Assembly: GCA_002434245.1 (NCBI GenBank)
Contig: DJJR01000010.1
Location: 1 to 18,880 of the forward strand
Source of the DNA: Pelosinus fermentans
GTDB lineage: Bacteria; Bacillota; Negativicutes; DSM-13327
DNA length: 18,880 nucleotides
Direction: 5' to 3'
Shown here: positions 9,786-18,847 of the stretch, piece by piece
Layout of the letters: every line of letters begins with the position of its first letter
Numbering within the stretch: the stretch's first letter is position 1
The notes under the pieces: model-generated
What the model was told of the DNA's origin: nothing
Databases searched by the model: none
The model's input: the letters and a program-made list of their open reading frames with translations, nothing else
Program-made: the position numbers and the translations under genes

Positions 9786-9818
9786 ACTCCCTAGACTATG
9801 TGCTTAGGGAGTTATTTT
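9786..9818 (+). terminator. Terminator-like hairpin before the spoVK remnant
   Basis: ACTCCCTA (9786-9793) and TAGGGAGT (9805-9812) are perfect 8-bp arms, followed by TATTTT. It lies just before the truncated spoVK frame and would block transcription from upstream, so the following operon needs a promoter after this point. Confidence 0.6.
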
Positions 9819-9842
9819 GCTTATACATATATTTACGTATTA

Positions 9843-10283
9843 ATGGCAAGTAATTATTTTACAGGTCTTTATATCGATGTCTTTGTAAAATCAATGGAAG
9901 ATCATAAAGAGGAACTAATCTTAATTTTAGCTGGTTATCAAAAAGAAATGGAATTTTTCTTACAGACCAATCCTGGTTTACGGTCTCGATTTCCAATACA
10001 TATCGATTTTCCAGACTATAACCAACAAGAGCTTTTACATATAGCAGAGCAACTATGTGCTAAGCGGCAGTATACCTTACCGGCAGATACTAAAACATTA
10101 TTATTAAAATTATTACTACAACACAGTAGTAATAACGACAATTTTGGTAATGCTCGGACTGTTCGTAATATGATTGAAAGAGCAATTCGTCATCAAGCTG
10201 TTAGATTAATGTCAAAAACGAGCATTACCAGGCAAGAACTAATACTAATTGAACCTGTTGATTTAAAGGAGGTAAAGGAGTGA
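9843..10283 (+). pseudogene. spoVK: 5'-truncated spoVK (AAA+ ATPase, C-terminal part only)
   Basis: From about 9864 the frame matches the C-terminal half of the SpoVK/CbbX AAA+ family. IDVFVKSMEDHKEELILILAG is the sensor-1 region. NPGLRSRFPIHIDFPDY carries the arginine finger. GNARTVRNMIERA is the sensor-2 helix. Walker A, Walker B and everything before them are absent, and the sequence upstream of about 9864 is unrelated. About 150 residues remain of the roughly 300 usual, with no ribosome binding site near any start. I therefore read it as a deletion remnant that cannot hydrolyse ATP. Its 3' end is still intact and holds the ribosome binding site of the next gene. In Bacillus, spoVK sits next to hflX and ynbB, as it does here at 6 kb distance. 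Confidence 0.8.
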
Positions 10284-10885
10284 GGGAACTTACTGTAGTT
10301 GGCAGGCCAAATTCAGGTAAAACGATGTTTACTCTCAATTTTGCTTCTTATATTGGAATAAAAACAGTAGATGTGACCTTCCGTACATATGATGATTTGA
10401 TCACATGCCGACATTTTTCTATTGAAGATGCGAAGAAAGAGCTTTGTAGTAGTACAATGCATAAAACAAAATCCTTACAATCATTAATTCTTAAAATTAC
10501 TCTTGGAAAAACAACAGTAAATTTCAAACTTACAGATACTTGTGGGATTGGAGAAAAAATACATCAAGAAGAAAAAATTCGTCGTGGCATGGCCCAGACT
10601 ATTGGTTTAATGCGCTGTGCAGATTTTATTTTTCATGTTATTGATTTATCCTATATTACTAAAGAATATATAAATAATCCTAGCACTATCGATCGCGAGA
10701 TATATAACTATGGTTTATTTCGAAATTCATATGCAATTTTGGCAAACAAGGTAGATATACCTTTTGCTAAAGAAAACCTTACTCAACTATCTTCGATATT
10801 TCCAAAAGCTACGATTATTCCGATATCAGCATTGTTAAGCCAAGGTTTAAAAGAGGTGAAGACCTGTGTTGCACGCAATGTGTGA
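10280..10885 (+). CDS. Small P-loop GTPase, uncharacterised
   Basis: 201 residues of the TRAFAC/Era-like GTPase type. The P-loop GRPNSGKT is at 8-15, G3 DTCGIG at 86-91 (in place of the usual DTxG), G4 NKVD at 156-159 and G5 SAL at 183-185. No membrane segment or extra RNA-binding domain is seen. The GTG start overlaps the spoVK stop as GTGA, with AAGGAGG (10266-10272) seven bases upstream, so translation is coupled to the old spoVK frame. The switch I region (30-75) is unusual and carries Cys43 and Cys56. The following membrane-protein gene overlaps its end by 20 bases. The role is unknown; coupling to a membrane partner suggests a switch acting at the membrane, possibly in sporulation (inference from location). 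Confidence 0.8.
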   Translation: MRELTVVGRPNSGKTMFTLNFASYIGIKTVDVTFRTYDDLITCRHFSIEDAKKELCSSTMHKTKSLQSLILKITLGKTTVNFKLTDTCGIGEKIHQEEKIRRGMAQTIGLMRCADFIFHVIDLSYITKEYINNPSTIDREIYNYGLFRNSYAILANKVDIPFAKENLTQLSSIFPKATIIPISALLSQGLKEVKTCVARNV

Positions 10886-11447
10886 ATTTATCAGTATAAT
10901 GTTTTCTGTGATACTTTCTGCCATTGCAATTAAATTAGCTGATGATTATTTAGATCAAGATATGGATAAATCTGAAAAGAATTTTGCAACCGCGCTAGGA
11001 AAAGGCAGTATGCTATATGGCATGGTATCAATGGCTTTGGCAGCAAGTCTAAATACTTCGGTAAGCATTTCCTTATTTTTTGCTAGTTACATAATTGGTA
11101 TGTTTCATGATCTGAAAAATCATTTTCCAAGCCGGCTCAATGGATTTCAAGAGTCTGTATTAATATTTATAGTGGGTATTTTTCTGTTAGGATGGAAGAT
11201 GATATTATTCTCCATTTTTTTTGTTATATCAATACAATTAATAGACGATTATATAGATGATTCCAGAGATGAGTTAATCGGGCACCGTAATTGGGCTCAC
11301 CGCCTTGGTAGAGTGGAGTGTTTTTTATTATTTCTATTAACTTTATTAATTTCTTGGCTAATTAACGAGGAAATATTTCCTGCAGTGTTTTTGGGCGCCG
11401 TAGTATCCTATAGTACAATATTGTATTATCAGAAAGGGAGATTATAA
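10866..11447 (+). CDS. Polytopic membrane protein with two Asp-rich motifs, UbiA-prenyltransferase-like
   Basis: 193 residues with six or so hydrophobic segments. Two near-identical Asp-rich motifs, KLADDYLDQDMD (23-34) and QLIDDYIDDSRD (124-135), sit at segment ends about 100 residues apart. UbiA-superfamily prenyltransferases use exactly two such motifs to hold Mg-diphosphate of an isoprenyl donor, so a UbiA-like role is likely. However, the protein is about 100 residues shorter than typical UbiA and the two motifs resemble each other more than usual, hinting at an internal duplication. The GTG start at 10866 follows GAGGTG (10853-10858) with seven bases, inside the GTPase gene, so the two are translationally coupled. 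The next gene overlaps its stop by one base. Substrate is unknown. Confidence 0.6.
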   Translation: MLHAMCEFISIMFSVILSAIAIKLADDYLDQDMDKSEKNFATALGKGSMLYGMVSMALAASLNTSVSISLFFASYIIGMFHDLKNHFPSRLNGFQESVLIFIVGIFLLGWKMILFSIFFVISIQLIDDYIDDSRDELIGHRNWAHRLGRVECFLLFLLTLLISWLINEEIFPAVFLGAVVSYSTILYYQKGRL

Positions 11448-15712: not shown

Positions 15713-15803
15713 CAGTAGTGGCCCTGAAAACATTAAATTACTAGACGATTTGTTATCTTAATCGAGCTAGCAAATGGAATAGGATCGAAGGAGCGTGAAA
15801 TAA

Positions 15804-17603
15804 TTGACAACTATATATGGAGATGTCAATGGTATACGAAAAAGTATTATTAATAGGCTGGAAGAATTATATGAATTTACTATTCCTTTTGGGCAAGTTA
15901 TAACAAATGAATTAGCACAAAAATTGATCGATTTGACAGATGACCTAAATCGCGAACTTGTTGTATATATTACCAGAAAAGGACAAGTTACTTGTGTAGC
16001 AGTTGGCGATGTCTATACCGTAATATTGCCGGAAGTTGATGGTCGGCGTTCTGCCAGCCGATTAAGTGGTATTCGCTGTATCCATACTCATCCTAGTGGC
16101 GAGACAGAACTTAGTGGGGTGGACATAGCTTCATTAAAGGAAATGCGTTTTGATCTAATGGCTGCACTGGGACGCAAGGATGAGATGATACAAGCAAGCT
16201 TTGGTATTATTACTAATATTGAGAATGATCGATTTAATACTCAAATGATTGGTCCTTTGTCCATTGATGAATTTATAGAGTTGGATATTACATATTTAAC
16301 TGCACAAATTGAGCACCAACTCGATTTAAATACTAAAACGAGTGCTATTGCAGAATCTGAAAGAGCTCTATTGGTTGGGTTGGAGAGGCAAGGAAAGTGG
16401 CGAATTACTGACTCATTAAAGGAATTGGCTCAATTAGCAGAGACAGCTGGTGCGGAAGTATTAGGTACGACGTGGCAAAAGAGGGATCGACCAGATTCAG
16501 CCTTATTTATTGGACGTGGAAAAGTGCAGGAGATTAGTTTACTGCGTCAGGAAAAGAATGTAAATCTCATTATTTTTGATGATGAGTTATCACCTGCACA
16601 GCAACGCAATCTTGAAAAAGCCTTGGGTATTAAAGTTTTAGATCGTACGGCGCTAATTCTAGATATTTTTGCACAGCGTGCTCGATCTCATGAAGGGAAA
16701 TTGCAGGTTGAGTTAGCTCAGCTTCGCTATAATTTACCAAGATTAGGTGGACAAGGATTAGTATTATCTCGGTTAGGCGGTGGTATTGGTACTAGAGGGC
16801 CTGGAGAAACCAAGCTTGAAGTTGATAGACGTCGAATCAGAGAACGAGTAAGTGATATTACAAAACAAATTGAATATATAAAAAAACAACGTAATTTGCA
16901 TCGTAAACGTAGAGAAACTACTCGCATTCCTACGATCGCTTTAGTTGGCTATACAAATGCAGGAAAATCAACATTGCTCAACCTGCTTACGGCATCGGAA
17001 GTGTTGGCTGAGGATAAATTGTTTGCAACTCTTGATCCAACAACTAGGAACATTACCTTAACCAATGGCCAGCAAGCCCTAATTACTGATACAGTTGGCT
17101 TTATACAAAAGCTGCCGCATCAATTAATTGCTGCATTTCGTGCTACCTTAGAGGAAGTTGTACAAGCTGATATTCTTCTGCATGTTGTTGATGTTAGTCA
17201 TCCTCAATACCAAGAACAAAGCCATGCTGTTTTTCAGGTTTTACACGAATTGAATGTAGATATAAAACAATTAATTACAATTTTTAATAAGGCAGATAAA
17301 GTAGAGGATTCGAATAGCGTAAGTGCTCTTTTAAAAACAGAAAATAGTGTTATGATTTCTGCTTTGCATGGTCATGGTATTGAAGGACTATTATTATTAA
17401 TTGAAAATGCTATAAAGCAGAAAACCATTGAAATGCATTTGTTGATACCTTATGATGAAAGTAATGTAATAGCCAAGCTATATGATATATCAAATGTTCA
17501 TTCTACGGAGTATCGTGAAGATGGCATCTATGTAAGTATTTCACTGTCTCCAGACCAAACTAATTATTTTAATCGATATGCTATAGGAGTAGAACAAGAA
17601 TGA
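15804..17603 (+). CDS. hflX: GTPase HflX with N-terminal JAMM-like domain
   Basis: 599 residues, against about 420 for typical HflX, a ribosome-binding GTPase that splits stalled ribosomes. The HflX core starts near residue 190 (LLVGLE), with the Gly-rich [15 protein letters not shown] (325-339), P-loop GYTNAGKST (382-390), DTVGF (429-433), NKAD (495-498) and SAL (519-521). The first 185 residues are an extra domain containing [16 protein letters not shown], an exact JAMM/MPN metal motif HxHx7SxxD (His94, His96, Ser104, Asp107), plus an upstream strand with Glu51 (RELVVYI). Similar extended HflX proteins occur in Clostridia, to my recollection. Protease or isopeptidase activity is inference. 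The TTG start has AAGGAG ten bases upstream. It overlaps ynbB as ATGA, so the two are coupled, as in Bacillus. Confidence 0.95.
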
Positions 17604-18847
17604 CTATATATAGTGAAGAAATATTAGAAATACGTAAACAAGCATTACAGCAGGCATCCTCTTTATTTGCTCGAGTGGATGAAATATCCGAAAAAAATAC
17701 TACTAGAGTCCTAGAAATATTTCGTAACCACAGAGTATCTGATTATCACTTTCGTACTACCTCAGGTTATGCCTATAACGATGCTGGACGAGAGAAGCTA
17801 GAAGAGGTTTGGGCTGACATTTGTGGAGCAGAAAAATCATTAGTGCGTACTCAATTTGTATCTGGGACCCATGCATTGGCTACTGTACTTTTTGGTTTAC
17901 TGCGTCCTGGACATGAGTTGTTATCCCTTACAGGAGCCCCTTATGATACGATGCAAACCGTTATTGGGCATACTTGTTCCTCGTCTGGTTCTTTAAAAGA
18001 ATTTGGTATCGCTTATTCAGAGCTTCCTATGATTGATAGTGGAGTGGATATAAAGAATATTGCTAAAGCTATGAAACCTAATACTAAAATGGTTTTGATT
18101 CAAAGGTCGCAAGGATATAGTATGAGAGCACCTTTAACGATACATGACATCAAGGAATTATGTGCTTACATAAAGAAAATTAATCCTGAATGTATATGTT
18201 TTGTTGACAATTGCTATGGTGAGTTTGTTGATATCCTAGAACCAACTGCTGTGGGTGCTGATATTATGGCTGGTTCATTGATTAAAAATCCTGGAGGTGG
18301 TATTGCTCCAACAGGCGGATATATAGCCGGAAAAAAAGAATTGGTTGAACAAACAGCTTATCGAATGACTGCTCCAGGTATTGGAAGCGAGTTAGGTGCG
18401 TCACTTGTTGATAATCGTCTTTTATTCCAAGGAATGTTTATGGCGTCACACACTACAGCCCAAGCTGTTAAGGGAGCTATATTTGCTTCTGTATTTTTTT
18501 CTTTATTAGGTTATAAGACATTACCTCTTCCTAATGAAGGACGTAGTGATATTATTCAAGCGATTCAACTTGACTCTCCAGAAAAATTAATAGCATTTTG
18601 TCAGGGGATCCAAAAATATTCTCCGATAGATGCTCATGTACGACCAGAGCCTAGTGCGATGCCAGGGTACCAGGATGCGATTATTATGGCTGCAGGTACC
18701 TTTGTACAAGGTGCATCGATTGAGTTAAGTGCTGATGGTCCTTTGCGTCCGCCGTACATCGTTTACTTACAGGGTGGATTAACCCTAGAACATGCTATCA
18801 TTGGGACTATGGGAGCTGCTGCTGAAATATTAAAAATAAAAAACTGA
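17600..18847 (+). CDS. ynbB: Methionine gamma-lyase/aluminium-resistance family PLP protein (YnbB)
   Basis: 415 residues, full length for the family. It is a fold-type I PLP enzyme related to cystathionine gamma-synthase/lyases. [15 protein letters not shown] (83-97) is the PLP-phosphate-binding region, FVDNCYGEF (201-209) holds the Asp that contacts the pyridine nitrogen, and [16 protein letters not shown] (225-240) carries the likely Schiff-base Lys229. The family is annotated as methionine gamma-lyase or aluminium-resistance protein, but the true substrate is not established. The ATG overlaps the hflX stop by four bases, with AGGAG (17586-17590) nine bases upstream, so the two are co-translated. 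In Bacillus glnR-glnA follow; the window ends before that can be seen. Confidence 0.92.

Follow-up and report, generated by a model that had tools for sequence, protein, structure and literature searches.

Evidence for a RadC-type JAMM/MPN+ domain at the N-terminus of HflX in Pelosinus fermentans

HflX is a conserved ribosome-splitting factor tied to macrolide-lincosamide tolerance (PMC12493154, cited throughout from excerpts, as are PMC11981726 and PMC300881). The hflX gene in the stretch of Pelosinus fermentans DNA analyzed here (contig DJJR01000010.1, 18,880 nucleotides; 'the window' denotes this whole stretch) raises the question of what the 186 residues encoded ahead of the HflX core are, and what they might do there. 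Residues 187-536 score 487.3 bits with TIGR03156 (cut-off 216.75), which identifies the protein as HflX, and PF13167, PF16360, PF01926 and PF19275 all exceed their cut-offs, so that the four HflX domains are present. The protein is the sole PF16360 match in its genome, and from its family membership it would be expected to split 70S ribosomes. Residues 1-186 gave no match when the full-length protein was searched, either in Pfam (E up to 10) or among the NCBIfam matches listed (25 of 29). A sequence-only reading had proposed that this region is a JAMM domain, and the proposal was borne out by the predicted fold, profile comparisons and co-conservation of the site residues. The gene and its relevant parts are as follows.

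15788..15793, + strand: AAGGAG, 10 bases 5' of the TTG start and likely to be the hflX ribosome binding site (read from the sequence)
15804..17603, + strand: hflX open reading frame, 599 aa, TTG start
15804..16361, + strand: JAMM/MPN (RadC-like) domain, HflX residues 1-186 (AF2 model, structure matches, RadC profile match)
15954..15956, + strand: Glu51, predicted acid-base, at the start of strand 1 (sequence, alignment, model)
16008..16070, + strand: residues 69-89, a lower-confidence loop with Arg81, Arg82 and Arg86 between strands 2 and 3 (pLDDT 62-79 in blocks 71-90; Arg counts)
16074..16079, + strand: Arg91-Cys92, immediately 5' of the motif (homologue conservation)
16083..16091, + strand: His94-Thr95-His96, with His94 and His96 as predicted metal ligands (sequence, conservation)
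16113..16124, + strand: Ser104 to Asp107, the motif end, with Asp107 as predicted metal ligand (sequence, conservation)
16362..17603, + strand: HflX core (N-domain, middle, GTPase and C-terminal domain), residues 187-599 and stop (TIGR03156, Pfam)

The TTG start stands immediately 3' of an in-frame TAA, as read from the sequence.

In JAMM enzymes two His residues and an Asp hold zinc, a Glu acts as acid-base and a Ser stabilizes the intermediate (PMC300881). The E-Xn-H(S/T)H-X7-S-X2-D motif of JAMM/MPN+ domains is present in HflX as Glu51, His94-Thr95-His96, Ser104 and Asp107. The exact HxHx7SxxD signature that had been noticed beforehand was recovered in the translation of the open reading frame, and the Glu that had been assigned to an upstream strand is the first residue of strand 1 and aligns with the invariant Glu of RadC. 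When the residues of the 186-residue domain were shuffled 200,000 times, the HxHx7SxxD pattern arose in 25 cases; conservation is the more decisive evidence for the motif.

The fold was examined through an AF2 model of residues 1-186 and its structure matches, which predict a JAB/MPN fold. The structural matches include eIF3h and Prp8, as well as two deaminases among the 50 listed, and the Foldseek E-values are weak. Searched alone, the N-terminal piece scored 13.2 bits against Prok-JAB (PF14464; E 0.082) and 12.5 bits against RadC (PF04002; E 0.14), below the Pfam cut-offs of 25 and 22.1, respectively; because of the latter, the domain is called RadC-like and not RadC. An hhalign comparison of 53 of the domains with 28 RadC proteins scored 49.2 (probability 91); none of 60 column shuffles exceeded 24.8, and the reversed control reached 15.4. 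In this alignment Glu51 falls on the invariant Glu of RadC, and the two His residues, the Ser and the Asp are also in register. The same comparison with seven Prok-JAB proteins gave 24.2 (probability 7; at most 17.2 in 60 shuffles), and RadC itself, as a yardstick, scored 34.8 with those seven. In 61 genomes searched with the Pfam Prok-JAB model, two HflX frames were matched at the motif, with E 1.4e-4 and 2.9e-4 (below cut-off). It might still be argued that an unrelated domain happens to match the motif, given the silence of Pfam on the N-terminus at full length, the sub-threshold scores of the piece alone and the weak Foldseek E-values, but this is contradicted by the conservation, profile and structure results and is judged refuted, with next to no probability left to it. 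That the HflX N-terminal domain is a JAMM/MPN+ domain of RadC type is close to certain. By sequence, the PDB gave only two microcompartment proteins (E 8.3e-4 and 0.72); the matches cover residues 51-100 and leave out the second half of the motif, and they were rejected as spurious.

Conservation was followed in sets of increasing breadth. Close homologues were taken as 120 of the 170 closest and, with a query from another family, as 120 of 207. Among the matches listed, the first set retains Glu51 in 118, His94 in 119, His96 in 120, Ser104 in 119 and Asp107 in 120, and the second retains each of the five in 120/120. The five residues are also invariant in nine domains with 31-41% identity to the window domain. 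Searching 398 genomes of the window's phylum with a nine-row profile gave 74 matches, of which 72 are in frame with an HflX core; the others are a RadC (L185, E 1.5e-4) and L177, an N-domain match 5' of an HflX frame with one internal TAA. In the 72 profile-found members Glu51 occurs in 67, His94 and His96 in 60 each, Ser104 in 67 and Asp107 in 65, and all five occur jointly in 59. The five site residues are thus co-conserved in extended HflX proteins, and neither of the outcomes named beforehand as refuting the sequence-only reading, a predicted fold other than JAB/MPN or His and Asp residues that vary among extended HflX proteins, was seen. Arg91 and Cys92 were kept in 240/240 close homologues among the matches listed in both sets, and in 62 and 58, respectively, of the 72; this conservation is stricter than RadC or Prok-JAB would lead one to expect.

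The site occurs in three states. The intact state (Glu plus HxHx7SxxD) accounts for the 59 members and 26 of 29 families. The site is lost in two groups at separate tree positions: in five members of family f41 the first His is replaced by Tyr, the second His, Ser and Asp are absent and Glu51 is absent in four, while in seven members of family f85 both His are gone, Glu and Ser are kept and Asp remains in five. The one remaining member (L163) has an intact motif and a start that was called late, and a record named Halanaerobacter (P0346) resembles the f41 state. The third, shifted state came from a search of short proteins, restricted to 0.55-1.75 times 189 aa, a range in which longer fusions could not appear. 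Its 112 matches include 42 (within P0299-P0349, mostly partial HflX) with HxHx6[S/T/D]xxD, in all of which an acid precedes the last Asp, giving HxHx6[S/T/D]x[D/E]D, and all 31 that could be scored have Gln at position 51. Of the 63 short proteins with the x7 motif, 60 have Glu at 51 and one, which seems to be misaligned, has Lys; the position could not be scored in the other two. Seven of the 112 have neither motif. The acid-base and the motif loop therefore vary together, as expected of one active site.

A JAMM domain accompanies HflX in 73/398 sampled genomes of the phylum, across 29 family codes, and HflX itself (PF16360) was found in 306 of the 398. A pattern scan of genome contigs, in which HTH was built into the pattern, matched 320 stretches, of which 307 are relatives. 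The best 80 of the 307 come from records named as Negativicutes taxa or Bacillota/Firmicutes, plus one metagenome-assembled genome named Acholeplasmataceae. The 112 short proteins include records named Acidobacteria, Deltaproteobacteria, Pyrinomonadaceae, Syntrophaceae, Myxococcota and Desulfatiglandaceae, and the shifted state occurs in those named Acidobacteria, Deltaproteobacteria, Myxococcota and others; if these names are right, the fusion is not limited to Bacillota. There was no convincing free-standing domain among the 112, the named ones being HflX (many partial) or hypothetical. In an HflX core tree of 91 rows the intact-site rows need six changes on the best tree, and a single origin of the fusion may be compatible with this tree, the backbone of which is unresolved. 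In two short proteins (P0306 and P0264) an HD domain (PF01966) or PF06153 comes after the JAMM N-domain; both proteins are probably assembly chimeras. Another genome of the window's genus (G403) encodes the domain twice, in frames of HflX length (620 and 627 aa; C1:2319754-2320320 and C1:3554402-3554971).

How might such a domain act on HflX? HflX fits its ND1 domain in by displacing H69 and directs its helical domain at the peptidyl-transferase center, and in mycobacterial HflX the stretch ahead of ND1 contacts uL16 and H38 and extends to the H69-H71 junction (PMC12493154). The full-length model (pTM 0.54) does not reliably give the position of the N-domain, and pLDDT falls below 50 at residues 179-182, the link to the HflX core. 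A flexible link would thus tether the JAMM domain to an HflX that is normal in other respects, and the domain, since it stands ahead of ND1, would be placed near uL16, H38 and H69-H71. HflX would bring it to the 50S intersubunit face during the splitting of stalled or idle 70S ribosomes. A zinc ion would be held by His94, His96 and Asp107, with Glu51 as acid-base and Ser104 as intermediate stabilizer, and the site would most likely hydrolyze a peptide bond, or a bond of similar kind, in a 50S-bound partner. Metal binding is very probable; it is reasonably likely that the N-domain is a metal-dependent hydrolase, whatever the substrate; and the chance that this substrate is located on the ribosome is put at slightly under even. 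The full proposal is a tentative one, well short of an even chance: many bacterial HflX proteins would be ribosome-splitting metallohydrolases in which the JAMM site, on the newly split 50S, cuts a bond in a 50S-bound partner (a ribosomal protein, for instance uL16, or peptidyl-tRNA itself), in parallel with Rpn11 coupled to an unfolding motor, and the Gln form with its one-shorter loop outside Bacillota would be a retuned or inactivated second state.

The serious rival to a hydrolase is a non-catalytic MPN module, which would use zinc for stability or sensing, or offer a surface for the ribosome or a partner that tunes HflX. eIF3h and the Jab1 domain of Prp8 are MPN- examples of this kind, and both appear among the structural matches. 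Two features of the family also weigh against hydrolysis: two separate lineages have retained the domain after losing the metal ligands, and in the Gln form the catalytic acid-base is replaced while the two His residues and the Asp are still present, which, as judged from sequence, warns that some members need not be classical hydrolases. The same two features weaken the functional part of the sequence-only reading, in which a tag, a nascent chain or a protein associated with the ribosome would be processed where ribosomes stall. A mere scaffold would have no need of Glu51, however, as this residue is not required for metal, and yet it is kept in 67/72 members and in 118/120 and 120/120 of the close homologues among the matches listed. 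The non-catalytic module is considered unlikely, though by no means negligible.

The domain could also act on RNA instead of protein: a RadC-like role, in which it binds or cuts mRNA, rRNA or, at its tRNA end, peptidyl-tRNA on the 50S, would suit RadC being the nearest family by profile, the loop with conserved Arg ahead of the motif, and the position of HflX amid rRNA, reaching the peptidyl-transferase center (PMC12493154). JAMM enzymes of known activity, however, hydrolyze peptide or isopeptide bonds, and the activity of RadC is not established (PMC11981726, PMC300881), which leaves this role improbable. A more specific possibility is that the JAMM domain substitutes for Prp, the protease responsible in Firmicutes for trimming bL27, a ribosomal protein whose N-terminus lies near the reach of HflX. 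Genomes with the domain should then lack Prp, but no such exclusion was seen: Prp is present in 59/73 genomes with the domain and in 245/325 without it (Fisher p 0.36, no anticorrelation), and the window's own genome has Prp as well. Substitution for Prp is accordingly given almost no credence, and hydrolysis of a peptide or similar bond is the reading carried forward. The natural lost-site and Gln variants lend themselves to direct tests of it.

The surroundings of hflX are conserved on one side.

17600..18847, + strand: PF06838 (methionine gamma-lyase) family gene 3' of hflX (602 bits), with a 4-base overlap with the hflX stop

Among the 73 related loci with more than 1 kb of flank (80 fetched), 67 have a relative of this gene 3' of hflX, and the gene is a conserved downstream neighbor. 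There was no conserved upstream neighbor, VanW being found in 4/71 loci and PRC in 13/71. Elsewhere in the window, an AAA lid fragment (PF17866), a small GTPase-like frame (PF01926) and a membrane-protein-like frame overlap or abut at 9798-11447 (+ strand) in an operon-like arrangement, and near the left end a 509-aa frame (86-1615, - strand) reads by eye like a large serine recombinase. PF04002 (RadC) is matched nine times in the window's genome, some of the matches being fragments, on contigs C14, C18, C44, C47, C71 and C78; many relatives have one match.

If a JAMM hydrolase is indeed carried by HflX in much of Bacillota and beyond, then ribosome rescue has an overlooked enzymatic step, and RadC-type JAMM domains, the substrate of which is unknown, gain a defined site of action. 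Rescue may be coupled to a cutting reaction in many bacteria in which the extra HflX domain has been overlooked. The mechanism of HflX is established in E. coli, Listeria and mycobacteria, and a JAMM domain is described in none of these in the excerpts of that work; extended HflX is also reported there from Clostridium and Paenibacillus (PMC12493154). An HflX-JAMM/RadC fusion was not described in the literature searched, which left out most subscription journals and preprints, so that it may be noted elsewhere. Both the domain and the GTPase are known, and it is their combination that is new relative to this literature.

Among known systems, the JAB domain of RadC (PF04002; PDB 2qlc) is the closest in structure and sequence, with the motif in register, the invariant Glu aligned, the best profile score and a joint best structural match. 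The window domain differs in sitting ahead of HflX and lacking the N-terminal part of RadC, in having HTHP where RadC has HNHPSG, in the Arg-Cys ahead of the motif, and in scoring below the RadC Pfam cut-off. Prok-JAB and PfJAMM1-type MPN+ proteases (PF14464; PDB 5ld9) show weak sequence similarity (hhalign 24.2; under the Pfam cut-off). The mycobacterial HflX extension is alike in being extra sequence ahead of ND1, but comprises 39-58 residues with no folded JAMM domain, and JAMM is unmentioned in the excerpts (PMC12493154). The nearest described case is RadC-like DinG, in which a RadC-like JAMM domain with no known function is likewise joined, at the N-terminus, to an NTPase that works on nucleoprotein (PMC11981726), although that NTPase is a DNA helicase and not a ribosome-splitting GTPase.
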